Shown here: positions 4,026 to 31,116 of the stretch, piece by piece
How the letters are laid out: each line of letters begins with the position of its first letter
Numbering within the stretch: position 1 is the first letter of the stretch
NCBI GenBank assembly: GCA_020848745.1
Contig: JADLHM010000133.1
Location: forward strand, 1-33,443
Reading direction: 5' to 3'
Source of the DNA: Deltaproteobacteria bacterium
Lineage (GTDB): Bacteria; Desulfobacterota; Binatia; UTPRO1
Length of the DNA stretch: 33,443 nucleotides
Notes under the pieces: generated by a model
Told to the model about the DNA's origin: nothing
Database searches by the model: none
What the model saw: only the letters and a program-made list of their open reading frames with translations
Made by a program: the position numbers and the translations under genes

Positions 4026-4405
4026 GACGCCTCCCGTTTCGCGTAGTCTCGGCTCGCCGACGTCATCGGCCGGGCGACGATGGCACGACTCCCTTTCCAA
4101 GGGGAGCCGCGCGCGGGCGTGACGGCTCCGCTCCTCATCCAGATGATGCGAGCCGAGGGGCCGTGCTGGGGCGCGGTGTTCAGCGCGCCGTTCGCCAAAC
4201 ACGACGCGGCGCAGCTGAAGAACAAATCGGACTGGCGCCGAAACACAAACGGCACCGAGGGCGTCTCATCGACGGCACTCGGCCGACGAGCTCACGCGAG
4301 TGGCGCCTTGGTACCCCTCGCAAGCGCATGCTAGCGTCGCACACGGTCATGAGCTCGCGTCTCGATACGGCGATCTCGGCACGCGAAACTGGCGGCGATC
4401 GCACG
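4026..4405. other. 380-bp gap with no gene I can defend
   Basis: This stretch separates the LLM gene (minus) from the HepT gene (plus). It is less GC-rich than its surroundings around 4195-4260. A plus-strand open frame of 84 codons (4080-4334) exists, but it has no recognisable motif or ribosome-binding site, and a 77-codon frame overlaps it on the other strand. I looked here specifically for a MntA-type nucleotidyltransferase (GSRARG...DxD) that should precede a HepT gene, and found neither motif in any frame. It should hold the LLM promoter (minus) and the promoter for HepT (plus). Confidence 0.5.
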
Positions 4406-4816
4406 ATGACGTACCTCGTCGAACGCCTCGCCGAGCTCCGACGCCACCTCGACCACCTGCGCGCGATTCGGCCCGGTGTGACGGGACCGGAGTTGCTCGA
4501 GCGAGACCTCACCCTCCACAACGACGTGCTCTTCTCGCTCTTCACGGTCTGTCAGCTGGTGATCGACCTCGCGAGCGAGCTGTCGTCACGCCGAGGCGAT
4601 CGGTTCGAGGATGACACGGAGGCGGTGCGCAACCTCGCCAAGGACGCGCGCTTTCCGATCGAGCTCGTCCGCCGCCTGGAGCGACTTCCGGGCTTCCGGA
4701 ACGTGCTGGTGCACGGCTACGTGAGCCTGGACATGGCGAGGGTCGTCGAGGCGCTGGACGAGCTGGCTCCGATCGACGAGTTTCACGGAATCGTGAGCGG
4801 TTTGCCGGAACTCTGA
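4406..4816 (+). CDS. hepT: HepT-like (DUF86) HEPN ribonuclease toxin, without its antitoxin
   Basis: A 136-aa protein of the HepT/DUF86 family. It begins MTYLVERLAELRRHLDHLRA, the usual first amphipathic helix, followed by ERDLTLHNDVLFSLFTVCQLVIDLA and the active-site motif RNVLVHGY. That gives R98, H103 and Y105, an intact RX4HXY. Known HepT proteins are HEPN-fold RNases neutralised when the partner nucleotidyltransferase MntA AMPylates the motif tyrosine. No MntA gene is adjacent on either side, which is unusual because the two normally overlap. The frame is open upstream to 4163, but only 4352 or 4406 are plausible starts; 4406 gives the normal family length. It ends 12 bp before the acyl-CoA dehydrogenase, so it may share a transcript with it. 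Confidence 0.8.
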   Translation: MTYLVERLAELRRHLDHLRAIRPGVTGPELLERDLTLHNDVLFSLFTVCQLVIDLASELSSRRGDRFEDDTEAVRNLAKDARFPIELVRRLERLPGFRNVLVHGYVSLDMARVVEALDELAPIDEFHGIVSGLPEL

Positions 4817-4828
4817 GGCGCCGCCGCC

Positions 4829-5998
4829 GTGTACGTCGCCTACACCCCCGAAGAAGAAGCGCTCCGCACCGAGCTCCGCGCCTACTTCGCGACCCTCATG
4901 ACCCCCGAGGTCGAGGCCGAGGTCGCCAACGGCGACACCGGCGGGCCGCACTGTCTCGCCGCCGTCAAGAAGATGGGCCGCGACGGCTGGCTCGGCATCG
5001 GCTGGCCGAAGGAGTACGGCGGTCAGGGCCGCGGGCTCGTCGACCAGTTCATCTTCTACGACGAGTCCTGGCGCGCGTTGGCGCCGATCCCGGCGCTCAC
5101 GATCAACGCGATCGCCCACACGATCATGGCCTACGGCAGCGACGAGCAGAAGCGGTTCTTCCTGCCCCGCATCCTGAAGGGCGCGCTGCACTTCGCGGTC
5201 GGCTACACGGAGCCGCAGGCGGGAACCGACCTGGCGTCGCTGAAGACCCGCGCCGTCCGCGACGGCGACGAGTGGGTGATCAGCGGCCAGAAGATCTACA
5301 CCAGCCTCGCCGGCTACGCCGACTACATCTGGCTCGCGGCGCGCACCGACCCGGACGCGCCCAAGCACCAGGGCATCTCGATCTTCGCGGTGCCGACGGC
5401 GACGCCGGGCTTCTCGTACTCGCCGATCCACACCTTGGTCTCGTCGGGCACGACCAACACCTTCTACGACAACGTGCGCGTCCCGACGTCGGCGCTGATC
5501 GGCACGGTGCACAAGGGTTGGAAGCTCATCACCAACCAACTGAACTACGAGCGCGTCGCGATCGCGCCGCCGGGGATGGTCGACAAGGTGTTCCAGGACA
5601 CGGTCGCGTGGGCGCGCGCGACCACGCTCCCCGACGGGCGCCGCGTCGTCGACCAGGAATGGGTCCGCACGAACCTCGCCCGCGTGCACGCCCGGCTCGA
5701 GTACCTGAAGCTCGCCAACTGGAAGGCCATCACCTGCGCCGAGCCCAACCCGGGGATCTCGAGTACGACCAAGGTGTTCGGCAGCGAGTTCTTCTGCGAG
5801 GCCTACCGCCTGCTGCAGGAGGTCTACGGCGCCGCCGGCATGCTGCGCGGCGACGCGCCCGGGGCGCCGCTCCGCGGCCGCCTCGAACGCGCCTATCAGG
5901 GCACCCTCTTCCTGACCTTCGGCGGCGGCGTCAACGAGGTGCAGCGCGACCTCATCGCGCTCTTCGGTCTCGGCATGCCGCGCGTCCCGCGCCACTGA
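4829..5998 (+). CDS. Acyl-CoA dehydrogenase, catalytic-type subunit of an alpha/beta pair
   Basis: A 389-aa FAD-dependent acyl-CoA dehydrogenase starting at GTG 4829. The first third is the helical N-terminal domain (EYGGQGRGLVDQFIFYDE). The middle beta domain carries GYTEPQAGTDLASLKTRAV and WVISGQKIYTS, the FAD/substrate signature. The C-terminal helical domain ends FGGGVNEVQRDLIALFGLG. At the usual MCAD catalytic position (YEGT) it has GGGV, but helix G has NYERVAIAP with E241. That is where isovaleryl-CoA dehydrogenase and the steroid side-chain FadE26-type enzymes keep their base. The next gene is a second, divergent family member separated by 11 bp, as in actinobacterial FadE pairs that make alpha2beta2 tetramers with one active site per heterodimer. 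The substrate is unknown; a bulky or branched acyl-CoA is plausible. Confidence 0.9.
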   Translation: MYVAYTPEEEALRTELRAYFATLMTPEVEAEVANGDTGGPHCLAAVKKMGRDGWLGIGWPKEYGGQGRGLVDQFIFYDESWRALAPIPALTINAIAHTIMAYGSDEQKRFFLPRILKGALHFAVGYTEPQAGTDLASLKTRAVRDGDEWVISGQKIYTSLAGYADYIWLAARTDPDAPKHQGISIFAVPTATPGFSYSPIHTLVSSGTTNTFYDNVRVPTSALIGTVHKGWKLITNQLNYERVAIAPPGMVDKVFQDTVAWARATTLPDGRRVVDQEWVRTNLARVHARLEYLKLANWKAITCAEPNPGISSTTKVFGSEFFCEAYRLLQEVYGAAGMLRGDAPGAPLRGRLERAYQGTLFLTFGGGVNEVQRDLIALFGLGMPRVPRH

Positions 5999-6009
5999 GG
6001 AGTCCAACC

Positions 6010-7134
6010 GTGGATCTCGAGCTCGACGAGAACCAACGCTCCATCGCCGACCTGGCGCTGCGGATCCTCCGCGACGCGCTGACCCGCGAGCGCCTGCGCG
6101 CGATCGAGGCGAGCGACGACCACGTCGCCACCGACGAGTGGACGAAGCTCGCGACCGCGGGCCTGCTCGGCGTGCCGCTCCCCGAGGACGTCGGGGGCGG
6201 CGGCTTCGGGCTCGTCGAGGCCTGCCTCGTGCTCGAGCAGGTGGGCCGCACGGTCGCGCCCCTGCCCTACCTCCAGACCGTCGTCGGCGGCGCCATGACG
6301 ATCGACGCCCACGGCACGCCGCGGCAGCGCCGCGAGCTCCTGCCGCGCGTCGTCGACGGCTCGCTCGTCCTCGCGATCGCGTTCGCCGAGCGCTTCGACG
6401 AGCTCGCGGCGGCGCTCCCCGTCGCGGCCGCCGTCCGCGAGGGCGCCGCCTGGCGCCTCGACGGCGAGAAGCCGCTCGTCGCGATGGCGCACGTCGCGGA
6501 TCGCCTGCTGGTCTCCGCGCGGACGCCGCCCGGCGCCTGCGCGGTCTTCCTCGTCGACCCGCGTGCGGCCGGCGTCACGCTCGAGACCACCGAGACGACC
6601 GCGCGCGAGCTCCGCTCCACGGTGCGACTGGCGGACGTCCGCGTGCACGACGACGACCGGATCGGCGACGCGGACGCCGGCATGGACATCGTCGCCGCGG
6701 CCGTCCGTCGGCTCACCGCCGGTCTCTGCGCGACCCAGGCCGGCGTCTCGGCCGAGGCGCTCCGCCTCACGGCGGCGCACGTGTCGGAGCGCGAGCAGTT
6801 CGGACAGAAGATCGCGACCTTCCAGGCCGTCGCGCAGCGCGCGGCCGACGCCTACATCGACACGGAGGCGATCACCCTCACCGCCCGGCAGGCGGTGTGG
6901 CTCCTCGCCAGCGGGCGCCCCGCCGACGAGGCCCTCGACACCGCGAAGTTCTGGGCGGCCGAGGCCGGCTTCCGCGTCGCGCACGCGGCGCAGCACCTGC
7001 ACGGCGGCATCGGCGTCGACACCGAGTACCCGCTCTTCCGGTACTTCCGGACGACGCGCCAGATCGAGCTCACGCTCGGCGGCGCGGCGTTGCACCTCGC
7101 CCGCCTCGGCGAGCGGATCGCGGCGGGTCGATGA
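6010..7134 (+). CDS. Acyl-CoA dehydrogenase-like subunit lacking both usual catalytic bases
   Basis: A 374-aa acyl-CoA dehydrogenase homologue. It starts at GTG 6010 with GAGGAG seven bases before it; that site overlaps the preceding stop. It has the N-terminal helical domain (LGVPLPEDVGGGGFGLVEA), a shortened beta domain without the TEP-x-AGSD signature, and the FAD-binding part of the C-terminal domain (EREQFGQKIATFQAVAQRAAD and QHLHGGIGVDTEYPLFRYFR). At helix G the sequence is VRRLTAGLCATQAG with no Glu, and at the second possible base position it reads LTLGGAALHL, also without Glu. It is therefore best explained as the structural/FAD-sharing partner of the preceding gene, as in FadE26-FadE27 or FadE28-FadE29 heterotetramers. 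The pairing is inferred from adjacency and residue loss. Confidence 0.88.
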   Translation: MDLELDENQRSIADLALRILRDALTRERLRAIEASDDHVATDEWTKLATAGLLGVPLPEDVGGGGFGLVEACLVLEQVGRTVAPLPYLQTVVGGAMTIDAHGTPRQRRELLPRVVDGSLVLAIAFAERFDELAAALPVAAAVREGAAWRLDGEKPLVAMAHVADRLLVSARTPPGACAVFLVDPRAAGVTLETTETTARELRSTVRLADVRVHDDDRIGDADAGMDIVAAAVRRLTAGLCATQAGVSAEALRLTAAHVSEREQFGQKIATFQAVAQRAADAYIDTEAITLTARQAVWLLASGRPADEALDTAKFWAAEAGFRVAHAAQHLHGGIGVDTEYPLFRYFRTTRQIELTLGGAALHLARLGERIAAGR

Positions 7135-7211
7135 TCGGCCGCAACGGACGCCTCCGAGCGTTGACAGCGGCACCGCGGTCGCTGCAAATCTGGCCGTACA
7201 GGAGGTTCGCC

Positions 7212-8033
7212 ATGCTCAACCGTCGACTCGCGCTCGTCGTCCCGCTGGTCCTCGTCCTCGCCACACCGGTCGCCGCCTTCGACCTGACCGGCACCTGGAC
7301 GGGCACCCGCAAGTGCAAGTTCTTCGATGCCGGGGTGAGGTCCAAGGTCGACCGCGAAGGCACGGTCGTGATCACCCAGTCCGCCAACTCCGTCGGGTTC
7401 CGGAGCGACATCGGAAGCTCGCACCTCTACCACGGGATCGCCAACTTCGGGACCGAGAAGCCGGACAAGGGCGAGCTCTCGGTACGCCACTGCGACAATC
7501 ACATGGACGCGGCGCCGTTCGACGCGATCGGACGCTTCACGGTGAGCACCAAGCCCGGCAGGGCGAAGGCGACGATCTCCGGCATCAGCATCGTCGCCAA
7601 CGACACCGTCCTGAGTCCGAGCCACGGCACCTGCAAGTGGAAGCTCACCCGCACGACGACCTTCGATTCCGGCGGCGTCTCGACGAACTGCGACATCGTG
7701 CTGTCACGACGCGCCGCCAAGACGGACGTCGCGTATCTGAGCGAGTCCGAGACGAAGCGGCTCCACGACGAGCTCATGGCCTATCGGCTCGCCACGTATC
7801 GCTACGCGTCCCCGAGCACGTCGCCCGGCAGCCATCTCGGCTTCATCATCGACGACGTCGCGCCGAGCCCGGCGATCGCCGCGAGCGGCGATCACGTCGA
7901 CCTCTACGCGTATACGAGCATGGCGGTCGCGGCGCTGCAGACCCAGGCCCGCGAGATCGAGCGCCTGCGCGCGGCGGTGGCGAAGCTCGAGACACGGAGC
8001 GCGGGCAAGCTCCGGACCGGAGCTTCACCCTGA
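7212..8033 (+). CDS. Secreted protein with a C-terminal S74/intramolecular-chaperone-like segment
   Basis: A 273-aa exported protein. ATG 7212 is preceded six bases upstream by AGGAGG (7200-7205). Residues 1-22 are a signal peptide (MLNRRLALVV, a Leu/Val core, then ATPVAA/FD). Residues 23-165 form a Cys-containing domain that begins FDLTGTWTGTRKCKF; I do not recognise it. From about residue 175 the sequence resembles the peptidase S74 chaperone domain of phage tail spikes and bacterial surface proteins. It has SESETKRLHDEL, then YRYASP, GSHLGFIIDDV, GDHVDLYAYTSMAVAALQTQ and a final Leu-heptad helix (REIERLRAAVAKLE). A Ser and Lys five residues apart (SESETK) match the spacing of the S74 self-cleaving dyad. 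The segment is shorter than typical S74 domains, so cleavage may not occur. Its role is unknown; trimerisation of a surface protein is one possibility. Confidence 0.7.
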   Translation: MLNRRLALVVPLVLVLATPVAAFDLTGTWTGTRKCKFFDAGVRSKVDREGTVVITQSANSVGFRSDIGSSHLYHGIANFGTEKPDKGELSVRHCDNHMDAAPFDAIGRFTVSTKPGRAKATISGISIVANDTVLSPSHGTCKWKLTRTTTFDSGGVSTNCDIVLSRRAAKTDVAYLSESETKRLHDELMAYRLATYRYASPSTSPGSHLGFIIDDVAPSPAIAASGDHVDLYAYTSMAVAALQTQAREIERLRAAVAKLETRSAGKLRTGASP

Positions 8034-8073
8034 ACGAGAACGCGGCGCGCCCGCGTCGTTGACGGAGGTCCGG

Positions 8074-8090
8074 CGGCGGCTCAGCCGCCG
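8074..8090. terminator. Hairpin between convergent genes
   Basis: CGGCGGC (8074-8080), loop TCA, GCCGCCG (8084-8090): a perfect 7-bp GC stem. It lies between the plus-strand secreted-protein gene and the minus-strand ABM gene and covers the latter's stop codon. No T-tract follows on either strand, so it is a possible GC-rich bidirectional terminator rather than a canonical one. Confidence 0.3.
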
Positions 8091-8443
8091 GCCTTCGCGG
8101 CCTCGGTCGTCTGGATGACCTCGTGGATCTCGAGCACGCTCGGCCCCGCGAACATCTCGGCCGGCGGCCGGTTACCGTGTGCGATCCGGAACGACTCGCT
8201 GTTCGTCCAGTCCCAGAACGCCTGCTCGGATTCCCAGTAGGTCTGCACCAGGTAGTAGCCTTGCTCCTGGCGCTCCTCGATCCGTCCCGTCTGGTGGTCG
8301 AAGCGGCGCGTCACCGGCCGCAGCACGAGGTTCTTCACGAACCCCGGCGAGCGGTCGATCAGGTGCGCGCGCTTCTTGAAGCGCTCCTCGAACTCGGCTT
8401 CGAAGGCCTTGGTGACGGGGATGCGGTTGGTGACGACGAACAC
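8081..8443 (-). CDS. Antibiotic biosynthesis monooxygenase (ABM)/HmoA-like protein
   Basis: A 120-aa dimeric ferredoxin-like-fold protein. Its path is FVVTNRIPVTKAFEAEFEERF, AHLIDRSPGFVKNLVLRPV, YYLVQTYWESEQAFWDWTNS and FRIAHG, which follows the ABM domain closely. Relatives include IsdG/HmoA-type haem-degrading monooxygenases and many small quinone or polyketide monooxygenases. The strand order FVVTNRI... and the WESEQAFWDW motif are those of the HmoA/HmoB side of the family, so haem or a similar ring is a candidate substrate, but no haem uptake gene is nearby. The start is GTG 8443, with AAGGAGG five bases upstream. The HAD gene lies 29 bp upstream on the same strand, so the two may be co-transcribed. 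Confidence 0.8.
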   Translation of the reverse strand: MFVVTNRIPVTKAFEAEFEERFKKRAHLIDRSPGFVKNLVLRPVTRRFDHQTGRIEERQEQGYYLVQTYWESEQAFWDWTNSESFRIAHGNRPPAEMFAGPSVLEIHEVIQTTEAAKAGG

Positions 8444-8472
8444 GGGAGCCTCCTTGGCTGGTCTAGCCCGAT

Positions 8473-9105
8473 CTAGTCCGCGAGCAACGCGCGCAGCCGA
8501 TCCATCGCGGGCCGATGATCCTCCTCGACGAGGATGCCTCGCATGCCGAGGCGCTCGGCCGCGGCGACGTTGCCGTGGAAATCGTCGAGGAAGACCGCGT
8601 GCTCGGGCGCGGCGACGCCGAGGCGATCGAGGGCCAGTCGGAAGATGCGCGGATCGGGCTTCCGGACGCCGGCGTGCGCCGAGTCCACCACCACGTCGAA
8701 GAGCTCGTCCACCGGCAGCATGGCGCGCCAGCCCTCGCCGAACTCCCGCACGTTGTTGGTGACGATCGCCGTCTTGACGCCGACCGCGCGGGCGTGGCGC
8801 GCGAGCGCGACCACGTCCTCGCGTATGCTCGTGTTGCGGAGCGAGCCGAGCGCCTCGAAGAGATCGATGCGGTGCTCGGGAGCCCCCAGGTCGAAGATCG
8901 CCTGCCGCGCGTCGACGAGCGAGACCTCGCCGCGCTCGAGACGGTGCCAGGGGTGGTCGGTGTCGCTGTCGTACGGCCCGAAGACGATCTCGATGACGCG
9001 CTCGGGCGCGAGTCCGAGCCCGGCGCCGAACGCGCGCACCGCGGCGAAGGGCGACTCCATGAAGACGCCGCCGAAGTCGAAGAGGACCGCTCGAACGGAT
9101 GGCAT
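8473..9105 (-). CDS. HAD-IA family phosphatase (YihX/epoxide-hydrolase N-domain-like)
   Basis: A 210-aa haloacid dehalogenase-superfamily hydrolase. Motif I is VLFDFGGVF: the nucleophile Asp is present, but the second Asp (DxD) is Gly, as in YihX-like sugar phosphatases and the N-terminal phosphatase domain of epoxide hydrolases. Motif II is AIVTNNVREF, motif III has RKPDPRIFRLAL and motif IV FLDDFHGNVAAA. The cap is the small helical C1 type between motifs I and II. The expected reaction is hydrolysis of a phosphomonoester with Mg2+ in the cytoplasm; the substrate is not predictable. ATG 9105 starts directly before motif I, as is normal. A longer open frame to 10038 on this strand is an artefact opposite the TPR gene. 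Confidence 0.85.
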   Translation of the reverse strand: MPSVRAVLFDFGGVFMESPFAAVRAFGAGLGLAPERVIEIVFGPYDSDTDHPWHRLERGEVSLVDARQAIFDLGAPEHRIDLFEALGSLRNTSIREDVVALARHARAVGVKTAIVTNNVREFGEGWRAMLPVDELFDVVVDSAHAGVRKPDPRIFRLALDRLGVAAPEHAVFLDDFHGNVAAAERLGMRGILVEEDHRPAMDRLRALLAD

Positions 9106-9195
9106 CGGCCCATCCTCGCGGTTTCCCCGCGTCCCCTCAAGCGCCCGGCGCGCGCTTGCGGCGCGCAGCCCGTCCGGGGCAAGCTCGCCGTCCCC

Positions 9196-10044
9196 ATGCG
9201 TCCGCGCTGGATCCGCGCCCTCGCCGCCGTCGCCTCGATGGCGGCCGCACCGGCACCGGCCGCGTTCGGCCACGCGCCGCCGGAAGCGATCGAAGCGGCG
9301 GCGCGCGCCGAGGTCGCGCGCCGCCCGGCCGACGCCGACGCGCACCTCGCCGCCGGCCGCATGCATCGCGCCGCGCGGGCCTGGGACGCGGCGCTCGCCG
9401 CCTGCGAGCGCGCCGCGGCGCTCGGCGCCGACCCGACCGTCGTCGCCGTGGCCAAGGGCGAGGTGTACCTCGACGCGGGATGGCCGGGCCTGGCCGAACG
9501 CGAGCTCACGCGGGCGCTCGAGCGAACGCCCGAGGACGTCGGGGCGCGCTACGACCGCGGCCGCGCCCGCATGGCGCTCGGCGATCCCGCCGGCGCGGCG
9601 CAGGATTTCGAACGCGCGATCGCCGGTATGCGTGAGCCGCGTCCCGAGCACGTGTTCGCGTGGCGCGACGCGCGCATCGCGCTCGGCGACCCCGCCGGGG
9701 CGATCCGCGTCCTCGACGCCGGCGTCGCGTACCTCGGCGCGGTACCGTCGCTGCACCTCGCCGCGCTCGACCTCGAGCTCGCCCTCGGGCGCTACCCCGA
9801 CGCGCTCCGCCGCCTCGATGCGCTCCTCGCGATCGGCGCGCAGAGCCCCGCCTGGATCGCGCGGCGGGCCGAGGTGCTCGATCGGCTCGGGCGCCACGCC
9901 GAAGCGCGGCGCGACCGCGCCCGCGCCCTCGCCGTGATCGAGCACCGTCGTCCGGGACGGCGCGGCAGCACGCTCACGACCCTCGCCGCCGAGCTCCGCC
10001 GCGATCTCGCCACCACCGCAGAGCCCCGGGAGGACCACCCATGA
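9196..10044 (+). CDS. Secreted TPR-repeat protein
   Basis: A 282-aa protein with an Ala-rich signal peptide (MRPRWIRALAAVASMAAA, cleavage near AAFG-HA). After it come about six degenerate tetratricopeptide repeats: ADAHLAAGRMHRAARAWDAAL, VAKGEVYLDAGWPGLAERELT, ARYDRGRARMALGDPAGAAQD, AWRDARIALGDPAGAIRVLD and ALDLELALGRYPDALRRLD. They continue to about residue 245. TPR proteins act as binding scaffolds, here in the periplasm or on the envelope. It overlaps the following metallophosphoesterase start by ATGA (10041-10044), so the two products are made together and may interact. The start at 9196 was chosen because the signal peptide begins there; no strong Shine-Dalgarno is visible. Confidence 0.82.
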   Translation: MRPRWIRALAAVASMAAAPAPAAFGHAPPEAIEAAARAEVARRPADADAHLAAGRMHRAARAWDAALAACERAAALGADPTVVAVAKGEVYLDAGWPGLAERELTRALERTPEDVGARYDRGRARMALGDPAGAAQDFERAIAGMREPRPEHVFAWRDARIALGDPAGAIRVLDAGVAYLGAVPSLHLAALDLELALGRYPDALRRLDALLAIGAQSPAWIARRAEVLDRLGRHAEARRDRARALAVIEHRRPGRRGSTLTTLAAELRRDLATTAEPREDHP

Positions 10045-11831
10045 CGCCGCCGGCCTTGCGCCTCGCCGCCCTCGCCACGAGCCTGCTCGCCGCGACCGTC
10101 GCGGACGCCGCGACCATCGTGCGCGGCCCGTATCTCCAGCAGCCGACGCCGGCCGGCATGACCCTGCGCTGGCGCACGGACGTCCCGACCGACAGCCGCG
10201 TGCGCTACGGCGCGGCCCCGGGATCGCTCGGTCTGACCGTAGACGACGCGGCCGTCACGACGGAGCACGTCGTGACCGTGTCGGCGCTGGCGCCCGACAC
10301 CGTCTACTTCTACGCGATCGGGTCCACGAGCGCCGACCTCGAGGGCGACGACGCCGATCACTTCTTTCGCACAACCCCGACCCCCGGCGCGGTGCGCCCC
10401 CTGCGCATCTGGGTCACGGGCGACGGCGGCTACGCCAACGCCGACGGTATGGCCGTGCGGGACGCTTACGCGGCGTACAACGGCGCCGCGCCCACCGACC
10501 TCTGGCTCCTCCTCGGGGACAACGCCTACCCGACCGGCAACGACGCCAACTATCAGGCGGCGCTCTTCGACCTGCACCACGACATGCTGCGGAGCGTCCC
10601 GACGCTGTCCACGTTCGGCAACCACGAGGCCATGGCGGGCAACTCGGCGCTCCAGACCGGTCCCTACTTCACGATGTTCACCTTCCCGACGGCGGGCGAG
10701 GCCGGCGGCGTTCCGTCCGGCTCCGAAGCCTACTTCTCCTACGACTACGGCAACGTGCACTTCGTCGTGCTCGACTCGGAGCACAACTCCAAGGCCTCGA
10801 CGAGCCCGATGATGCTGTGGCTCGAGGCGGATCTGCAGGCGACGACCGCCGACTGGATCATCGCGCTCTGGCACCGCCCCCCCTACAGCAAGGGCCTGCT
10901 GCACGACTCCGACCTCGAGTTCGAGGAGATCACCATGCGCACCAACGTCGTGCCGATGCTCGAGGACTACGGCGTCGACCTCGTGCTCTGCGGGCACAGC
11001 CACTCCTACGAGCGCAGCTACCTGCTCGACGGCCACTACGGGCTCTCCGACACGTTCGAGCTCCCGGTCCACGCTCGCGACGCCGGCGACGGCGATCCGA
11101 GCGGCAACGGCCCCTACCGCAAGCCGAGCCTCGGGCAGAGCCCGCGCAACGGGGCAGTGTACGTCGTCGCCGGCAGCTCGAGCGACGTCCGCACGACGAC
11201 GCTGAACCATCCGGCGCTCCCGGTCGGGCTCCTCGAGCTCGGCTCGCTCGTGCTCGACGTCGACGGCCAGACGCTCACCGGCACGTTCGTGAACGCCGCC
11301 ACGCAGGCGGCGGACCGCTTCCGCATCGTGAAGGGTCCATCCTGTCCGAGCGCGCCGCGGGGCGGCTGCGCGAGCGCCCCGAAAGGCCGGATCGCGCTCA
11401 GGAACGATCCCGTCGACACGAAGGACAAGGCGCAGTGGAAGTGGCAGAACGGCACGCTCGACAGCACGCAGATCGGCATGCCGAGCGGCCAGAGCGACGT
11501 CGCGGTCTGCCTGTACGATCAGAGCGGCAGCCTGTTCGGCGACGCCCTCGGCCACGGCGCCCCGGCGTGGAAGGCCAAGGGCGGCGGCGTGCAGTACGTC
11601 GAGAAGTCCGGGGCGCACGCCGGCATCACGAGCGTGAAGGGCACGTCGGGCACCGGCAAGGGACAGATCCAGGTGAAGGGCGCCGGCGCCTCGCTCGCGC
11701 TGCCGGCCGGCGCGCCGGCGTTCCCGTTGACGGCCCAGCTGATCAACCTCCAGAGCGGAGCGTGCTGGGAGTCGGTGTTCCCGACCGCCAAGGTCAACGA
11801 CGGCGTGAAGCTCTCGGCGAAGCTCCCCTGA
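10041..11831 (+). CDS. Secreted metallophosphoesterase (purple acid phosphatase-like) with a C-terminal shared domain
   Basis: A 596-aa exported enzyme. GGGAGG precedes ATG 10041 by seven bases. A signal peptide (residues 1-23, ends VADAA) is followed by a fibronectin-III-like domain (IVRGPYLQQPTPAGMTLRW...PDTVYFYAIG), as in purple acid phosphatases. The calcineurin-type metallophosphatase domain runs from about 120 to 390 with all metal motifs: GDGGY (~127), GDNAY (~158), GNHE (~193), WHRPPYS (~277) and GHSHSYERS (~317). From C435 to the end is a separate domain with CP...GC, KDKAQWKWQNG, VAVCLYD, GTGKGQIQVKG and ACWE. That tail closely resembles the tail of the propeller protein at 26884-31116. 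It probably releases phosphate from organic phosphoesters outside the cytoplasm; the role of the tail is unknown. Confidence 0.9.
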   Translation: MTPPALRLAALATSLLAATVADAATIVRGPYLQQPTPAGMTLRWRTDVPTDSRVRYGAAPGSLGLTVDDAAVTTEHVVTVSALAPDTVYFYAIGSTSADLEGDDADHFFRTTPTPGAVRPLRIWVTGDGGYANADGMAVRDAYAAYNGAAPTDLWLLLGDNAYPTGNDANYQAALFDLHHDMLRSVPTLSTFGNHEAMAGNSALQTGPYFTMFTFPTAGEAGGVPSGSEAYFSYDYGNVHFVVLDSEHNSKASTSPMMLWLEADLQATTADWIIALWHRPPYSKGLLHDSDLEFEEITMRTNVVPMLEDYGVDLVLCGHSHSYERSYLLDGHYGLSDTFELPVHARDAGDGDPSGNGPYRKPSLGQSPRNGAVYVVAGSSSDVRTTTLNHPALPVGLLELGSLVLDVDGQTLTGTFVNAATQAADRFRIVKGPSCPSAPRGGCASAPKGRIALRNDPVDTKDKAQWKWQNGTLDSTQIGMPSGQSDVAVCLYDQSGSLFGDALGHGAPAWKAKGGGVQYVEKSGAHAGITSVKGTSGTGKGQIQVKGAGASLALPAGAPAFPLTAQLINLQSGACWESVFPTAKVNDGVKLSAKLP

Positions 11832-13267: not shown

Positions 13268-14839
13268 TCAGGCGGCCGGCGCGGTGATGCGGATCAGGTG
13301 GTCGAACGCCCCGAGAGCCGCCTTCGCCCCCTCGCCGGTCGCGATGATGATCTGCTTGTAGGGCACGGTGGTCGCGTCGCCGGCGGCGAACACCCCGGGA
13401 ACGCTCGTCCGCCCCCGCTCGTCGACGACGATCTCGCCCGTCCGGGAGAGCTCGACCGCGCCGCGCAGCCAGCCGGTGCTCGGCAGCAGCCCGATCTGGA
13501 CGAAGATCCCGGCGACGGCGAGATCGCGGACCGCGCCGCTCGCCCGCTCCTCGTAGCGGAGGCCGGTCACCCGCTGCCCGTCGCCGACGACCTCGGTCGT
13601 GCGCGCCCCGAGGATCACCTCGACGTTCGGCAGGCTGCGGAGCTTCCGCTGCAGCACCTCGTCCGCCTTGAGCGCGTCCATGAACTCGAGGATGGTCACG
13701 TGCTCGACGACGCCCGCGAGGTCGATCGCCGCCTCGACACCCGAGTTGCCGCCGCCGATCACGGCGACGCGCTTGCCCTTGAAGAGCGGACCGTCGCAGT
13801 GCGGGCAGTAGGTGACGCCGCGCGTCCGGTACTCGCCCTCGCCCGGGACGTTCATGTCGCGCCAGCGCGCGCCGGTGGCGAGCACGACGCTGCGGGCGGC
13901 GAGGCGCGCGCCGCTCGCGAGCTCGACCACGATCGGGTCGCCGGGGACGAGCTTCACCGCCCGCTCGAGCTTGATCACGTCGACGTCGTAAGCGGCGACG
14001 TGCGCTTCGAGAGCGGCGGCGAGCCTCGGGCCCTCGGTCGCCGCGACCGAGACGAAGTTCTCGATGGCGTTGGTGTCGAGCACCTGGCCGCCGAAGCGCT
14101 CGGCGACCACGCCGGTGCGGATGCCCTTGCGAGCGGCATAGATCGCGGCCGCCGCGCCCGCGGGTCCGCCGCCGACGACCAGCATGTCGAAGACCGGCTT
14201 GGCGTCGAGCACGCGCGCGCGCCGCTCCACGGCGCCGGCGTCGATCTTCGCGAGCAGCTCTTCGAGCTCCATCCGGCCCTGTCCGAGCCGCTCGCCGTTC
14301 AGGTACACGGTCGGCACGGCCATCACCTGCCGCTCCGCGACCTCGTGCGGGAAAGTCGCGCCGTCGATCGCGACGTGGGTGACGTTGGGGTTCCGCGCCG
14401 CCATCAGGTTCAGCGCCTGCACGACGTCGGGGCAATTCTGACACGACTGCGAGAAGTAGGTCTCGAAGTGGAACGGACCCGTGAGGGCGTCCACCTGCGC
14501 CAGCGCGTCGCCGCCCACCTTCGGCGGGTGGCCGCCGACGTGGAGCAGCGCCAGCACGAGCGAGGTGAACTCGTGCCCGAGCGGGAGGCCGGCGAAGCGC
14601 ACGCGCGGGGCCTCGCCGGGCAGGTGGATCGCGAACGACGGCCGGCGGACGCCGGTTGCGCCGCCCGCGCGCGCGTCCTCGACCACCCGCACCATGCTCG
14701 ACGCCTCGGCGAGATCGGCGAGCAGCCGCCGCATCTCCGCCGAGTCGGCGCCGTCGTCGAGCGCCGCGGCGACCTCGATCGGCCGCCGCAGGTGCTCGAG
14801 GTACTGTCCGAGCTGCGCTTTCAACGCATCGTCGAGCAT
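13268..14839 (-). CDS. ahpF: Alkyl hydroperoxide reductase subunit F
   Basis: A 523-aa flavoprotein disulfide reductase that passes electrons from NAD(P)H through FAD to AhpC. The N-terminal double-thioredoxin-fold domain (about 1-200) carries the CQNC pair C133/C136 in [12 protein letters not shown]. The FAD domain starts at [20 protein letters not shown]. The NAD(P)H domain has [19 protein letters not shown], and the flavin-proximal disulfide is CPHC, C345/C348, the same numbering as in E. coli. The end [21 protein letters not shown] is the second FAD signature. All redox centres are present and the length is normal. ahpC lies immediately upstream on the same strand (15-bp gap), so the two form an operon. 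AAGGAG lies about ten bases before ATG 14839. Confidence 0.96.
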
Positions 14840-14854
14840 GGTGCCGGGTCTCCT

Positions 14855-15418
14855 TCAGATCTTGCCGACGAGGTCGAGCGACGGCTTCAGCGTCTTCGAC
14901 CCCTCTTGCCACTTCGCGGGGCACACTTCGCCCGGATGCGAGGCGACGTACTGGGCCGCCTTCACCTTCCGCAGCAGCTCCTTGGCGTCGCGGCCGATGC
15001 CGTTGTCGTGGACCTCGTAGAGCTTGATCTTGCCGTCGGGGGCGACGACGAAGCTGCCGCGGAGCGCGAGGCCCTCGTCCTCGATCAAGACCTCGAAGTT
15101 GCGGGCGAGCGTGGCGGTCGGGTCGCCGACCAGCGGATAGCGGACCTTCTTGATGGCCGGTGACGTGTCGTGCCAGGCCTTGTGCGCGAAGTGGGTGTCG
15201 GTCGACACGCCGTAGACCTCGACGCCGAGCTTCTTGAACTCGTCGTAGTTGTCGGCCAGGTCCTCGAGCTCGGTCGGGCAGACGAAGGTGAAATCGGCGG
15301 GATAGAAGACGAAAACGCTCCATTTTCCGCGGATCGACTCGTCGGATACCGGGACGAACTTCCCGTCGTGGAACGCGGTGGCCTTGAACGGCTTGATGGT
15401 CGTGTTGATCAGCGACAT
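14855..15418 (-). CDS. ahpC: Alkyl hydroperoxide reductase subunit C (2-Cys peroxiredoxin)
   Basis: A 187-aa typical 2-Cys peroxiredoxin that reduces H2O2, organic peroxides and peroxynitrite. The peroxidatic cysteine is C47 in [16 protein letters not shown] and the resolving cysteine is C166 in [10 protein letters not shown], both at the classical positions of AhpC. The sequence opens [20 protein letters not shown] like enterobacterial AhpC. The start at 15418 is fixed by homology and by GGAGGAGG about seven bases upstream; an upstream in-frame ATG at 15529 would add a non-homologous leader. It is first in the ahpC-ahpF operon and divergent from oxyR (127 bp between starts), the usual arrangement for OxyR-controlled peroxide defence. 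Confidence 0.97.
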
Positions 15419-15545
15419 CTCGATTCCTCCTCCAGGTTGATGGTTCGCGCCGGTTCTCCCGGCGCCGTTCCTATGTGCCCCCGGAGCGCCCGACAGTCCA
15501 ATCGAACGTTTTGAACTTCCGATCATCACTGGTTATCAATCGGGG
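15419..15545. promoter_or_regulatory. ahpC-oxyR divergent control region
   Basis: This 127-bp region between divergent ahpC and oxyR must hold both promoters. The stretch 15500-15545 next to oxyR is clearly AT-richer than its surroundings (AACGTTTTGAACTTCC, then GATCATCACTGGTTATCAAT). An OxyR site (four ATAG/CTAT half-elements spaced by seven) is expected. Only a partial ATCA-N7-TTAT half matches by eye, so no box is placed. Confidence 0.45.
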
Positions 15546-16505
15546 ATGATCGACCTCGGACAGATCACCCTCACCCAGATGCGGTACGCCGTCGCGGTCG
15601 AGACGACCCGGAATTTCCGGGAAGCCGCGGCGCGCTGCCACGTGTCCCAGTCCGGCCTCAGCATGCAGCTCCGCAAGCTCGAGGAGCTGCTCGGCATCGT
15701 GCTGTTCGACCGCGCCAAGAAGCCGCTGCTCGTGACCACCGACGGGGCCGCGGCGCTCGCCCAGATGCGGGCGGTCCTACGCGAAACCGAGCGGCTCGGC
15801 CAGGTCGTAGCCGAGGGCGAGGAGCCCGCGGGGCCCTTCCGCCTGGGCGTCATCCCGACGCTCTCGCCGACGGTCCTCCCGTTGTTTCTCGGCCGCTTCG
15901 CCGCCGCGCACCCTCGCGTCGAGCTCGTCGTCGAGGAGCTCAAGACCGAGGAGATCATCGCGCGCCTGCGCGCCGACACCCTCGACGCCGGCCTGGTGGC
16001 GACGCCGCTCCGGGTCGCGGGGCTCCGTGAGGAAGCCCTCGGCCACGAGCGCATGCTCGCCTATCTGCCGCCGGGCGACCCGCTGCTCCGCAAGACGGCG
16101 GTCACCCAGGCGGCGCTCAGCGAGCGCGAGCTCTGGATCATGCCGGAAGGCCACTGCTTCCGGAGCCAGGTGCTGTCCTACTGCGGCACCGAGCCGCGCC
16201 CCCGCCCCTCGCGCATCCAGTTCGAGAGCGGCAGCTTCCAGACGCTGGTGCGGCTCGTCGACGAGGGGCTCGGCGCCACGGTGCTGCCGGAGCTGGTCGT
16301 CGACGGGCTCCCGGCCGCACGCCGCCGCCGGCAGGTGCGCGCGCTGGTCGCCCCGACGCCGGTCCGGGAGATCGGGCTCGTCACCGCACGGAGCCACCTG
16401 CGCCGGCGCGTCACCGACGCGCTCGTGGCGGCGATCCGCCGCGGGCTCGAGCAAGCGCTCCCGCCGGCGGCGCGGAGCGCGGTCGTGCTGGATCCGCTGG
16501 AGTGA
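15546..16505 (+). CDS. oxyR: Hydrogen-peroxide sensor OxyR (LysR family)
   Basis: A 319-aa LysR-type regulator. The winged helix-turn-helix is at about residues 8-65 (MRYAVAVETTRNFREAAARCHVSQSGLSMQLRKLEELLG). The regulatory domain follows, beginning FRLGVIPTLSPTVLP. The diagnostic feature is EGHCFRSQVLSYC: C204 and C213, nine residues apart, equivalent to the redox pair C199/C208 of E. coli OxyR. It therefore should form an intramolecular disulfide on H2O2 exposure and activate ahpCF, from which it is divergently transcribed. The C-terminal LPELVVDGLP and QTLVRLVDEGLGATVLP are normal. ATG 15546 fits the family start (MIDLGQITLTQMRY). Confidence 0.93.
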   Translation: MIDLGQITLTQMRYAVAVETTRNFREAAARCHVSQSGLSMQLRKLEELLGIVLFDRAKKPLLVTTDGAAALAQMRAVLRETERLGQVVAEGEEPAGPFRLGVIPTLSPTVLPLFLGRFAAAHPRVELVVEELKTEEIIARLRADTLDAGLVATPLRVAGLREEALGHERMLAYLPPGDPLLRKTAVTQAALSERELWIMPEGHCFRSQVLSYCGTEPRPRPSRIQFESGSFQTLVRLVDEGLGATVLPELVVDGLPAARRRRQVRALVAPTPVREIGLVTARSHLRRRVTDALVAAIRRGLEQALPPAARSAVVLDPLE

Positions 16506-17808: not shown

Positions 17809-18537
17809 ATGGGCGCGGGGATCCAGACGAAGATCTTCGAGGACGGAGACGCGCTGGCGCGCGCGGTCGCACGGGACCTGAGCACGCTCGCCGCGGCGGC
17901 GGCCTCCGCGCCGTTCACGATCGCCCTCTCGGGCGGCTCGACGCCGAAGCGGCTCTACGAGCTCCTCGCGGCGCCGCCTTGCCGCGAGCGCGTGCCGTGG
18001 ACGAAGGTCGAGCTCTTCTTCGGCGACGAGCGCAGCGTGCCGCCCGAGCATCCGGACTCGAACTACGGCATGGCGAAGCGCGCGCTCCTCGACCACGTAC
18101 CGGTGACGGCGCACCGCATGCGCGCCGAGCACGGCGACGCCGAGGGCTACGCGCGCCTCCTCGGCGAGCGCATCGCGCGGCGCCGAAACGGCGTGCCGGT
18201 CCTCGACGTCGTGCTGCTCGGCATGGGCGAGGACGGCCACACCGCGTCGCTCTTCCCCGGTACCGCGGCCCTCGGCGAGCGCGCGCGCTGGGTCGTCATG
18301 AACGACGTCCCGCAGCTCCACACGCGCCGCATGACGCTCACCTATCCCGTGCTGAACGCGGCCGAGCGCGTCTGGGTGCTCTCGGCCGGCGCCGGCAAGC
18401 GCACCATGGTCGCCGAGTGCCTCGCGGCGGCGGCGCGCGGCGACGATCCGCCGCCGCGGCCGATCGTCGGGATCCGGCCGACCGACGGCGAGCTCATCTG
18501 GTTCCTCGACAAGGCGGCCGCAGGGCCGACGGCCTGA
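17809..18537 (+). CDS. pgl: 6-phosphogluconolactonase
   Basis: A 242-aa DevB/SOL-type 6-phosphogluconolactonase, which hydrolyses 6-phosphoglucono-1,5-lactone to 6-phosphogluconate in the oxidative pentose phosphate pathway. Signatures are FTIALSGGSTPKRLYELLA (substrate phosphate loop), ELFFGDERSVPPEHPDSNYGM, LDVVLLGMGEDGHTASLFPG (with the catalytic His in EDGHTAS) and a late WVLSAGAGKR. Length is normal. It is the first gene of pgl-gnd-glk, 22 bp before gnd. zwf (glucose-6-phosphate dehydrogenase), often in the same cluster, is absent here. Confidence 0.95.
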   Translation: MGAGIQTKIFEDGDALARAVARDLSTLAAAAASAPFTIALSGGSTPKRLYELLAAPPCRERVPWTKVELFFGDERSVPPEHPDSNYGMAKRALLDHVPVTAHRMRAEHGDAEGYARLLGERIARRRNGVPVLDVVLLGMGEDGHTASLFPGTAALGERARWVVMNDVPQLHTRRMTLTYPVLNAAERVWVLSAGAGKRTMVAECLAAAARGDDPPPRPIVGIRPTDGELIWFLDKAAAGPTA

Positions 18538-18559
18538 CGGCCGAGAGAGGCAGTCGCAC

Positions 18560-26883: not shown

Positions 26884-29800
26884 TCAGTCCGATTTCGCCT
26901 TGAAGCGCTCGCCGTCGTTGGCGATCGGTGACGAATACGTCGCCTCCCAGCACGCCTCCTCGGTGCCGTCGAGCGCGACTAGCTGTACCCGCACCGGCGG
27001 AGCGAGCCCGAGCGTCGGCATGGCGAGCACCGCGCCGCCACCCTTCACCTGGATCTTCGCCTTCCCCGTGGTGCCGGCCTTGAGCGTGATCTGCGTGATG
27101 CCGCCGTCGGTGCCCGCCTTGTCGCGCATCTTGAAGCCGTTGGCGCCGGTCCGCGACCAGCAACGCTTGCCCTTCGTCGGATCGCAGATGCGATCCGGAC
27201 GCACGACGGCGCCCATCACCGGCTGCGGCCGTCCGCCGTTCGCATCGTAGACGCAGAACGCGTAGTTCGTGAAGCCGGTCACCGGGTTGCCGAAGCGGGC
27301 GACCGGCGTGTCGCCGCCCTTGTTCCACGACCACGAAATCCGATCCTTGGCGTTGTTGGCGGCGTCGCTGACCTGCAGCGACCCCTTCCCGGACACGGCG
27401 ATCGGCGTGCAGCCGGAGCGCGCCGCGGCGGGACAGCCCGCCGGGTTCGGGTCGCAGGCGAAGTCGCCGAGCCCGTCGGCGTCGGCATCGACGTCCGGAG
27501 CGTTCGCGTCCTCGACGCAGGTGTCGAAGTCGTCGAACACGCCGTCGTCGTCGGCGTCCCCGAAGAGCACGACCGCCACCGCCGTGGTCACCGCACCGTC
27601 GCCGTTCAGGTCCGTGTCGACGTCGCTCTCCCTGACCTGGGAATAGACGAGCTGACCTTCCAGGAAGGGCTCCGGGAGACGCGCCACGGTGACGTCATCG
27701 CTCTGCGGGATGCCGCTCGACGGGAAGAGCGACAGCAGCTGCCGCTGGCCGTTCAGGAGATTGTAGACGTTCAGCACGAAATCGAGGTTGTTGCCGTTGC
27801 CGTCCAAGTCCACGCCCTGGCTGGCCTCCCAGACGACGAACGACACGGTGCCGCGGACCGGGTCGAGACGATACGGCACGCCGGGCTCGCAGCTCGGAAA
27901 GCTGCAAGGGATCGCCGCCAGCTCGGGATTGATCACCTCGCTCGGGCTGCTCGAGATGTCGACCAGCTGCAGCGGATGGTCGGTCGTGGAGCCATTCTGA
28001 TTCAGATCGACCCCGGTCGCCGCCTCGTCGGTGAGGACCGCCACGACGTTGCCGGCCACGAAGAAATCGGGGCGGTCAGGATAGCGCGGGTCGTAGAGCC
28101 CTTCGAATCCCACGTTGCCGCGGCTCACCGCGATGCCGGTGTTCTCGATCTTGCCGACGCCGCCGAACTTGTGGCGATACACATGCAGCACCCGGTCGGT
28201 GGCGGTGCCGTTGCCGTTCAAGTCGCACCCGCCCGGCGGGATGGTGGCCGCGCAGCCGGAGGCGTTGGGCGGCTCCATCGCCTCTGGTCGGGAAAACACG
28301 ACCGAGGTCCCGGTGGCGGCCACGATATCGGCGGCGACGCCGAGGTCGCGCACGACCGGGGCCGGGCCGATCTCGGCGACGGCGAGGATGCCGTCGATCG
28401 TGTCGAAGTCGCCGTTGCGGTCGTGGTCGTGCTCGCTTCCCTCCGGCACCGAGAACGCGATGAGCTCGTCCGACAACGCGATGCGCCGTCCGGCCACCCC
28501 GAGCGGCGTGACGACGTCGAAGGGGCCCGTCGCGTCGAGCAGCTCGACGACGTGGTCGTCGTCGTCACCGTCGCCGTTGCCGGCGCCGCCCAGGTCTTCC
28601 GGCCTGAGATAGAGCGCCCGCCCGCCTGCGACCGCGACGCGCGTCGCCGGTGTTCCGACGGTTCTGAGCGCGTTCGTCGCGGCGTCGAAGACGCCGAGCC
28701 CGCCGCGCACGCTGTACCCCCGGATGCTCGGCGCCTGCGCCGCCACGTAGACGTCACGGCCGTCGGGGCTCAGGGCGAGAAACACGCAGGTCTGATCGGT
28801 CAACTGGGCGTACGGGTCGGCGGAGCCCGAGCGGGCGTCGATCTCCCAGACGAGCAAGCCTTCGCTGCTGCATGTCAGCAGGCGCGAGCCGTCGGGGCTG
28901 ACCATGAGACGATAGACGTTCAGATCGTCCGTGGTCGCCTCCCAGCCGCCGACCCGCGTCAAGAGGCCGGTCGTCTGGTTGCGGTCGAAGACGACGATCG
29001 TCGGCTGGCCGTAGAACGTCGGCGCCACGTACAGGCGGCGGCCGTCGGGGCTCAGGCCCATCCCCTGGCCGTCGAGAACGATCGTCTGCTTCAGCGTGAG
29101 CGCGCCGTCGATCGGGCTCCGGTCGAAGACCTGCACGTCGTACGAGTTCACGTAGACGTGAGCTCCGTCGGGACTGAAGGCGATGTTGCCGCCGTCGCCG
29201 CCGACCAGGTCCGCGAGCGCGACACCGACGAACGTCAGCGCGCCGGTGAGCGGGTTGCGGCGGAACACGGAGAGCTTCTGCTCGCTGCCGCAGCAGCCGT
29301 TGTCGCTGCCCACGACGTACAGGTTGAGCCCGTCGGGGCTCACGGCGATGCGTCCGCCGCCCGTGATGCCGTCGATGCCGCCGAGGCCTTCCACGTACTC
29401 CACCAGGAACGTGAGGCCGCCGGTGAACGCGTCGCGCGCGAACACCATGACGTGTCCGGGTTGGAAGTTGTTGAAGCCCTTCACGTAGAGGTGCAGGCCG
29501 TCCGGGCTGATCGCGAGCTGGTTGACGCGATACGGCGCCGGCTCGTTGCCGAGGAAGGTCAGCCCGCCGCTTCCAGGATCGCGCGCGAAGACGGAGACGA
29601 CGTTGTGAATGGAGCCGGCCAGGTAGACGTGCGCGCCGTCCGGGCTGACCGCGACTTCGTCGCTGTAGGTCAGACCCGAGTCACCCGAGGCGATCGCCGA
29701 GCCCGGCGTGCGGAAGAAGACGCGCTCGCCGGAGACGGCGAGGGTGCGGCGGTTCACGAGCGGCGCGCCGTCCACCTCGACGGTAGTCGCGGCGGTGAGG

Positions 29801-31116
29801 TGGCTGCCGTCGCCGCGATAGACGCGCAGCACGCTATCCTCCAGGTCGGCATCGCCGTTGTAGTTCACTCCCTGGCCGGCTTCCGATTCGAGGAACGCCA
29901 CCAAGTCGCCGGCCGAGGTGATGGCGGGCGTGACGATCCCGGTCTCCGTCACGGTGCTGACGGCGCGCGCGGTGTTGGTCGCCACGCCCGTCGACGGATC
30001 GACGACCTGCACCACGAGGTCGGTCTGGTCGCCGTCGGGGTTCAGGTTGAGACCCTCCCGGCTCTCTTCGCGGACGTAGCCGATCGCGGCGCTGCCGGGT
30101 CGCAGACTCACCAGGGGAAGCGGCTGCTCGCGCGTGACGTCGTAGGGACCAATCAGGATCGGCCCGCGTCCGAGGTGGAGCCGGTCGCTGAGATCGAAGA
30201 GAGCAGGCCCGCCTTCGCCGTCGTCGCGCGCGAAGCGCAGGACGGATTCCGCCGCGTCCGAGGTTCCGAAGAGCTCGCCGACGTTGGTGAGCCGCAAGAG
30301 CGGAGGCAGCGGTCGGCCGTCGAGCGTGAACGAACGGACGTAGCGCTCGGGACTCGCCTGCGCGGCCAGCACTTGCAGGATCGTGTTCGGATCGCCCGCG
30401 CCCTGCGCCGCCACGTCGGCCGTGCCGGTGAGCAGGATCGCGACCTGCGCGCCCGGCGTCTCCGCCAGCACCGACGCCAGCCCTTGGCCCCAATGGTCGA
30501 GCGGCACCAGCAGATTGCCGCCGCCGTCGACAGTGGCGCGCACCTGCGGTGCGGCGTCGTTCACCAGATCGGCCATCAGGTTCGGCCGCGGCAGCACGGT
30601 GAACTGCCGGAAGACCCGCTCGGGCTGGCGGTCGCAGCCCGTCGTTGGCTGTGCGAGCGCGTCGATGCGGGCGACCGTCTCGGCACCCACCGTGACGATG
30701 ATCTCCGCCGGACCGGCGAGGCCGTCCGGTACCAGGATCCCGCTGGTGTCGGGGACGAGGAAGCTGAACGTCGTGCAGCGTCCGCCGGCGAGCGTACAAT
30801 CCTGGACCACTTTGCCGGTGATCGCGGCGGGCGGCACGAGGGTGTCCGCGCCGGGCCCCGGCGGCTGGAAGGTGAGCGAGACGACGTTACTCGCCGGATC
30901 CGGATGGAATCCCGGGGAGGCATCGCAAGGGGTGATCCGGATCTCGACGCGGCGATCCGGAGCGCTGATCGGGCTCGCGACGCTGCCCAACGTGGACGCA
31001 AACTCCCGACGCGTGACCGGAATGATGTTGCACCCGGCGCGCGCGTCTCCGATCCACGCGGCACACGTTCCGACAAACAGTCCAACGGCGATCCACCCAG
31101 CGCGCTGGCCAAGCAT
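26884..31116 (-). CDS. Large secreted beta-propeller protein with Ca-loop repeats and a C-terminal shared domain
   Basis: A 1410-aa exported protein. ATG 31116 has GGGAG six to seven bases upstream. Residues 1-28 are a signal peptide (WIAVGLFVGTCAAWIGDARA). Residues ~480-820 hold a lactonase/YncE-type beta-propeller: about seven blades repeat VSPDGAHVYLAG, ISPDGLHLYVKG, VSPDGLNLYVVG, FSPDGAHVYVNS, LSPDGRRLYVAP and similar, each followed by VFxRDPxTGGLTF. Flanking and downstream regions carry Asp/Asn-rich loops that look calcium-binding (DLNGNGTATD, DLNQNGSTTD, DLDGNGNNLD, DTDLNGDGAV). A thrombospondin-3-like stretch follows (DADDDGVFDDFD, DVDADADGLGD). The last 183 residues (from C1228) match the tail of the metallophosphoesterase at 10041-11831. 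It is probably a cell-surface or released structural or binding protein; no enzyme activity is assigned. Confidence 0.88.
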   Translation of the reverse strand: MLGQRAGWIAVGLFVGTCAAWIGDARAGCNIIPVTRREFASTLGSVASPISAPDRRVEIRITPCDASPGFHPDPASNVVSLTFQPPGPGADTLVPPAAITGKVVQDCTLAGGRCTTFSFLVPDTSGILVPDGLAGPAEIIVTVGAETVARIDALAQPTTGCDRQPERVFRQFTVLPRPNLMADLVNDAAPQVRATVDGGGNLLVPLDHWGQGLASVLAETPGAQVAILLTGTADVAAQGAGDPNTILQVLAAQASPERYVRSFTLDGRPLPPLLRLTNVGELFGTSDAAESVLRFARDDGEGGPALFDLSDRLHLGRGPILIGPYDVTREQPLPLVSLRPGSAAIGYVREESREGLNLNPDGDQTDLVVQVVDPSTGVATNTARAVSTVTETGIVTPAITSAGDLVAFLESEAGQGVNYNGDADLEDSVLRVYRGDGSHLTAATTVEVDGAPLVNRRTLAVSGERVFFRTPGSAIASGDSGLTYSDEVAVSPDGAHVYLAGSIHNVVSVFARDPGSGGLTFLGNEPAPYRVNQLAISPDGLHLYVKGFNNFQPGHVMVFARDAFTGGLTFLVEYVEGLGGIDGITGGGRIAVSPDGLNLYVVGSDNGCCGSEQKLSVFRRNPLTGALTFVGVALADLVGGDGGNIAFSPDGAHVYVNSYDVQVFDRSPIDGALTLKQTIVLDGQGMGLSPDGRRLYVAPTFYGQPTIVVFDRNQTTGLLTRVGGWEATTDDLNVYRLMVSPDGSRLLTCSSEGLLVWEIDARSGSADPYAQLTDQTCVFLALSPDGRDVYVAAQAPSIRGYSVRGGLGVFDAATNALRTVGTPATRVAVAGGRALYLRPEDLGGAGNGDGDDDDHVVELLDATGPFDVVTPLGVAGRRIALSDELIAFSVPEGSEHDHDRNGDFDTIDGILAVAEIGPAPVVRDLGVAADIVAATGTSVVFSRPEAMEPPNASGCAATIPPGGCDLNGNGTATDRVLHVYRHKFGGVGKIENTGIAVSRGNVGFEGLYDPRYPDRPDFFVAGNVVAVLTDEAATGVDLNQNGSTTDHPLQLVDISSSPSEVINPELAAIPCSFPSCEPGVPYRLDPVRGTVSFVVWEASQGVDLDGNGNNLDFVLNVYNLLNGQRQLLSLFPSSGIPQSDDVTVARLPEPFLEGQLVYSQVRESDVDTDLNGDGAVTTAVAVVLFGDADDDGVFDDFDTCVEDANAPDVDADADGLGDFACDPNPAGCPAAARSGCTPIAVSGKGSLQVSDAANNAKDRISWSWNKGGDTPVARFGNPVTGFTNYAFCVYDANGGRPQPVMGAVVRPDRICDPTKGKRCWSRTGANGFKMRDKAGTDGGITQITLKAGTTGKAKIQVKGGGAVLAMPTLGLAPPVRVQLVALDGTEEACWEATYSSPIANDGERFKAKSD

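Follow-up and report, generated by a model that had tools for sequence, protein, structure and literature searches.

The analysed stretch of DNA (33,443 nucleotides; hereafter the window) belongs to a 4.88 Mb genome (99.5% complete) of the class Binatia (Binatota), placed in the group UTPRO1, which is an order of Binatota (PMC8262859). Two genes of the window, encoding a metallophosphoesterase and a 1410-aa propeller protein, end in copies of one protein module, and a fragment of another copy lies between genes. The following features were distinguished (positions are those of the window):

4104..4229, + strand: orphan module fragment, last ~42 residues, ending KNKSD (HMM i-E 1.1e-10)
10041..11342, + strand: host part of the metallophosphoesterase, with a Sec signal peptide (about 10041-10109) and Pur_ac_phosph_N and Metallophos domains
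11343..11831, + strand: module (162 aa plus stop), C-terminal in the metallophosphoesterase; optional third cysteine pair absent
26884..27435, - strand: module (183 aa plus stop), C-terminal in the 1410-aa propeller protein; six cysteines
27436..27558, - strand: acidic TSP3-like (D-rich) linker, directly before the module of the 1410-aa protein; weak TSP3-like matches (residues 1186-1223), sequence read directly
27559..31116, - strand: host part of the 1410-aa protein, with a signal peptide (about 31036-31116) and a Lactonase/WD40-like propeller

The metallophosphoesterase gene runs from the ATG at 10041 to the end of its stop codon at 11831, with C435 encoded at 11343, while in the 1410-aa protein (minus strand) C1228 lies at 27435 and the stop at 26884; the tail coordinates given in a preliminary description of this DNA were thus exact. 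The orphan fragment at 4104-4229 has neither an upstream module remainder nor a host reading frame and is a decayed module copy. Counting this intergenic, hostless remnant, three copies were once present in the window. Two other gene groups were noted in the window: AhpF-like and peroxiredoxin genes (minus strand) beside an OxyR/LysR-type regulator (plus strand) at 13268-16505, which looks like an ordinary peroxide-response cluster, and consecutive 6-phosphogluconolactonase-, 6-phosphogluconate dehydrogenase- and glucokinase-like genes at 17809-20966.

An alignment that spans both tails completely shows 33% identity and 48% positives (BLASTP E 2e-24), which confirms their proposed homology and removes the concern that they might lack significant similarity. 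The tail of the 1410-aa protein, used alone as a query, matched about 30-35 places in the window's own genome, most with E < 1e-15, so that the similarity is far beyond chance. The order of motifs described for both tails was recovered, except that the last motif reads NDG....SAK in one tail and NDG....KAK in the other. As had been reported, the parts preceding the tails differ, being a PF00149/PF16656 phosphatase in one protein and a PF10282-like propeller in the other (Pfam). Pfam and NCBIfam scans of both full-length proteins assigned no family to the tails, and neither Pfam (2025) nor NCBIfam (2026) has a name for the module family, in agreement with the earlier statement, in which no named family was recognised.

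An iterated profile, applied to fetched loci, recovered 28 modules of full length from the window's genome, along with about five copies that are fragmentary or edge-cut. In the alignment of the 28 sequences, the positions without variation include four cysteines, a G.P motif, and a single tryptophan and glutamine. In a sample of 148 genomes of the phylum, the module was present in four of the five genomes of the window's class and in none of the 143 others, a restriction to one class that applies within the sampled phylum. In a sample of the class it was found in 51 of 148 genomes, representing twelve families, and many class genomes contain at least 22 module candidates. A scan of a genome collection with a strict peptide pattern retrieved five loci, each of them in a genome closely related to that of the window, and no relatives of the module were detected in plasmids and viral contigs at the sensitivity used. 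Among about 16 genomes of one family (f66), a single genome (G162) carries the module, in one copy (E 4.5e-47), which may be the result of transfer or of a misbinned contig. In genome G000 (contig C98, ~151-172 kb; loci L018 3428-16764 and L019 1858-5650), four full module proteins plus decayed pieces occupy about 20 kb, which indicates local duplication and loss. Inspection by eye of the clusters holding several module copies revealed no recognisable partner gene.

The hosts of the module were characterised by a Pfam scan of thirty proteins plus the two window proteins. The domains identified ahead of the module include (i) GDSL lipase, reprolysin, GH5 cellulase, trypsin and a second metallophosphatase, and (ii) sortilin/BNR, kelch, FG-GAP, DUF5122 and PD40 propellers, laminin-G and beta-helix domains. 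In the window's genome the host classes comprise proteases, lipases, glycosidases, phosphatases and propeller proteins. We argue host diversity from these Pfam domains, since single-linkage clustering joined 48 of the module hosts, probably via common Cys-rich or DUF4215-like linkers, and thereby undercuts a claim that the hosts are fully unrelated. Sec-type starts, scored with a simple heuristic of our own rather than SignalP, were found in 86 of 99 module hosts, compared with 72 of the 329 remaining long ORFs in these loci; by the same heuristic none of the 99 hosts has a lipobox. The end of the module tail contains no membrane helix.

Most copies occupy the C-terminus: 92 of 103 distinct full-length modules (89%) end at most 15 residues before the stop, and in these copies the distance between the domain end and the stop is nearly constant (1-15 residues). 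The preliminary description held that the domain is always last, which is true of the two window proteins but not of the family. A flexible T/P-rich, acidic or Cys-rich linker frequently precedes the module. Internal copies occur in L027, with a long further part behind the module, in L035, followed by DUF4360, and in L053 and L055, where T/P-rich linkers flank the module on both sides (L055 also has a CBM96-like N-domain). In L049, L064 and L070 the module stands right after the signal peptide, followed in L049 by a CxxCH-containing part and in L070 by a pectate-lyase-like part (assigned by eye). The latter locus (genome G056; 3460-7671 and 5769-10034, plus strand) encodes, in adjacent frames that overlap, two N-terminal modules with 97% identity, and this pair is a recent tandem duplication with the pectate-lyase-like part. 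The suggested profile search yielded what had been anticipated, i.e., many matches on diverse, mostly C-terminally tagged exported proteins, together with the internal and N-terminal copies that had not been.

Two further groups of related sequences were recognised. Members of subfamily A5 carry the module directly behind the signal peptide (12 of 12 aligned members), where it precedes an SGNH-type hydrolase, an endo/exonuclease-phosphatase-type protein and others (assigned by eye), while subfamily A6 is C-terminal and ends in an.AP.P..C motif. In profile-profile comparisons (hhalign), A1 matched A5 with a probability of 97.8 (E 7e-13) and A6 with a probability of 96.3 (E 1.5e-9), and a profile built from only three N-terminal members also matched the tail from the window (E 3.7e-7). 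In the phylum sample, A5 and A6 were again found only in the window's class. One A5 member showed a match to CW_binding_2 (Pfam) at E 0.013 only. Judged from these sequence comparisons, A1, A5 and A6 are three subfamilies, with differing placements, of one unnamed domain superfamily.

AlphaFold2 predicted one compact all-beta domain for the window module (pLDDT 94.2, pTM 0.90) and an all-beta domain for the N-terminal subfamily A5 (pLDDT 91.2, pTM 0.88), with matching strand order in the two models. The single compact beta fold with disulfides that had been anticipated was thus obtained, the disulfides being supported by the co-occurrence of cysteines. Cysteines 84 and 92 of the module are both present in 89 of 103 copies and both absent in 14, and never occur singly; the first N-terminal cysteine and that of the CxYD strand are jointly missing from the three copies that diverge most, a count in which the cysteines further upstream in L064 are assigned to its signal peptide; cysteines 9 and 162 are invariant. 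From this pattern we infer three disulfides (1-61, 9-162 and 84-92), which in the 1410-aa protein would correspond to the predicted pairs C1228-C1288, C1236-C1389 and C1311-C1319. The module would accordingly be a ~170-residue Ig-like sandwich with two core disulfides and usually a third.

No solved protein in the PDB is related to the module by sequence, and the fold searches gave weak matches, with a best Foldseek E of 4.6e-3 and best Z values of 5.3 (rmsd 3.7, 95 residues) and 4.9 (rmsd 3.7, 101 residues). The Ig-like folds matched at this level (Z <= 5.3) include CTLA-4, ZP2, archaellum FlaF/FlaG and OmcA/MtrC domains; no structures of the C-terminal domain (CTD) of the type IX secretion system (T9SS) were among the matches listed. 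Such matches mean a common Ig-like arrangement and not a relationship, so that the function of the module cannot be read from its structure.

The module, its internal copy included, is under purifying selection. Readable ortholog or paralog pairs give dN/dS values of 0.09-0.24 for it; the value is 0.17 for an internal copy conserved between two species, and in readable ortholog pairs the module's dN/dS equals or falls below that of the host. It has also moved between genes, as similar modules are found on dissimilar hosts: the module at L018:10455 shares 75% identity with the one in L036 and 65% with the one in L037 (same genus), and the host parts are without similarity. Both in this genome and in others, proteins of the family to which the 1410-aa propeller protein belongs have this module at the end in some members and a different, Cys-rich one in others. 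The alternative Cys-rich C-terminal module, probably helical, occupies the last ~250 residues of L092 (genome G000, contig C94) and L093-L096 (CQKAIGK...CLDRINxGKLSGD..LCLG), and its profile matched five places in the window's genome. A tree of 103 modules was poorly resolved, with the modules of propeller hosts appearing scattered. In AU tests, a single clade was rejected neither for the two phosphatase modules (p 0.57) nor for those of five propeller hosts (p 0.35). The tree, compatible with common descent within phosphatase or propeller hosts, was therefore set aside as proof of shuffling, and the mobility of the module is argued from the direct module/host pairs.

As about thirty further exported proteins carry it, the module is probably a general-purpose attachment or addressing module. 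Starting from what was computed for it (homology, copy number, host diversity, signal peptides and placement, as well as predicted fold, cysteine pairs, purifying selection and unrelated hosts), we propose, with a probability of roughly 0.5, that it is a portable extracellular binding or anchoring module, mostly placed last, which retains its hosts near the cell surface. The module would be joined to Sec-exported proteins by recombination between genes, mostly as the last domain; the host would be exported by Sec through its signal peptide, and the module would fold with its disulfides in the periplasm. It would then attach to one shared ligand of the producing cell's envelope or matrix (a surface polysaccharide, LPS, the S-layer or an outer-membrane protein), so that enzymes and propeller proteins which would otherwise be soluble stay on or close to the surface. 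Sec export, periplasmic disulfide folding and mobility between hosts are supported; we infer all three of the remaining elements, namely ligand binding, a ligand that is common and retention at the surface.

The N-terminal and internal copies fit better with such position-tolerant binding or anchoring. CBM, SLH, PPC and Ig-like modules occur N-terminally, internally or C-terminally on exported enzymes, frequently behind T/P-rich linkers. The module resembles these accessory modules in its varied placement on diverse exported proteins and in its T/P-rich linkers, but differs from them in its strong C-terminal bias, its occurrence in one class only of the sampled phylum and a range of hosts extending well beyond polysaccharide enzymes. 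Searches against known binding-module families gave no meaningful Pfam E-value, no sequence relative in the PDB and no significant structural match. Against the binding reading, the 89% C-terminal bias and the near-constant distance to the stop exceed the needs of a freely placed module, and the same data would be expected of a ligand-free structural cap.

This bias would be accounted for directly if the module were a C-terminal sorting or secretion signal following the logic of the T9SS CTD, with an outer-membrane machine of Binatia, for export or attachment, reading the folded module in the periplasm and delivering the cargo to the surface. We consider this possible but rather unlikely. It agrees with the position 1-15 residues before the stop, with the dozens of unrelated Sec-exported cargos per genome, with the exchange of the module for another C-terminal one in the propeller family and with its limitation to one class within the sampled phylum. 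The type A CTD is an Ig-like domain of seven strands, found on many unrelated Sec-exported proteins (PMC10202324), and the module is likewise, as are the CTD families PF18962/TIGR04183 and PF13585/TIGR04131, a C-terminal beta domain on many unrelated Sec-exported hosts of one lineage. However, it is roughly double the length of a CTD (~170 aa against ~80-100), contains up to six cysteines, is not always C-terminal and occurs outside Bacteroidota, without a sequence match or an identified T9SS component. Its predicted all-beta domain has more strands than seven, and its fold matches are weak (best Z 5.3). When 28 members were compared with Pfam-A and NCBIfam, even a cut-off of E 1 brought up no T9SS CTD family, and membership in the T9SS was rejected on this ground; nor is the module invariably the last domain (92 of 103 copies). 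The internal and N-terminal copies, one internal copy being under purifying selection, also argue against a sorting signal, under which the fold would have been put to a second, separate use in the N-terminal subfamily. Moreover, the alignment has no conserved cleavage motif ahead of the module, and no dedicated machine was identified. SprA_N was found in none of 143 class genomes, but equally in none of the control genomes. The T2SS secretin GspD, present in the window's genome and in 141 of 143 class genomes, is nearly universal in the class and shows no correlation with the module, so that its presence is uninformative about the module.

Somewhat less probable still is that the module serves as an address tag for a route of surface display or secretion not yet described in Binatia, in which one receptor or translocon would recognise the fold and bring dozens of unrelated proteins per cell to the outer surface or keep them there.

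The module shares with MYXO-, PEP- and GlyGly-CTERM and LPXTG tags the character of a lineage-typical C-terminal element on dozens of unrelated surface proteins. Such tags are tripartite, consisting of a motif, a transmembrane helix and a basic tail (PMC11980579), whereas the module is a folded soluble domain without helix or basic tail, its tails ending in a beta-strand and K(A/S)D with no hydrophobic helix; NCBIfam CTERM families gave no match to it. Sortase anchoring was rejected, PF04203 being absent from the window's genome (controls were positive). The sorting, anchoring or secretion behaviour proposed in the preliminary description may thus apply, a general extracellular binding or anchoring module being the better fit, but the module is not confined to the C-terminus and the known C-terminal sorting tags do not match it; the original observation was right and undersold, and its interpretation is partly supported.

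The least probable explanation, to which we give little credence, is a passive structural or stability domain, i.e., a disulfide-bonded C-terminal cap spread by duplication and recombination with no ligand or sorting role: the compact disulfide-rich beta fold, the varied hosts and placements and the lack of a partner gene in the dense clusters inspected are compatible with it, but the glycine/aromatic motifs conserved across very different hosts, a dN/dS no higher than that of the host in readable ortholog pairs and copy numbers above 20 in many genomes speak for a shared job beyond capping.

A mobile extracellular module mostly placed last is an already known kind of behaviour. As far as Pfam and NCBIfam show, what is new is the family itself, with its three differently placed subfamilies and its expansion within a single uncultured class; a term search of the genomic survey of Binatota (PMC8262859) returned no mention of extracellular or surface proteins. 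Many members of an uncultured class that is widespread in the environment thus each have an unnamed superfamily on dozens of their proteins, and the module provides a simple marker for the exported or surface proteome of Binatia. Its distribution raises the question of which common feature of all hosts requires the same module, and if a common receptor or translocon proved true, it would constitute a new surface-display system.
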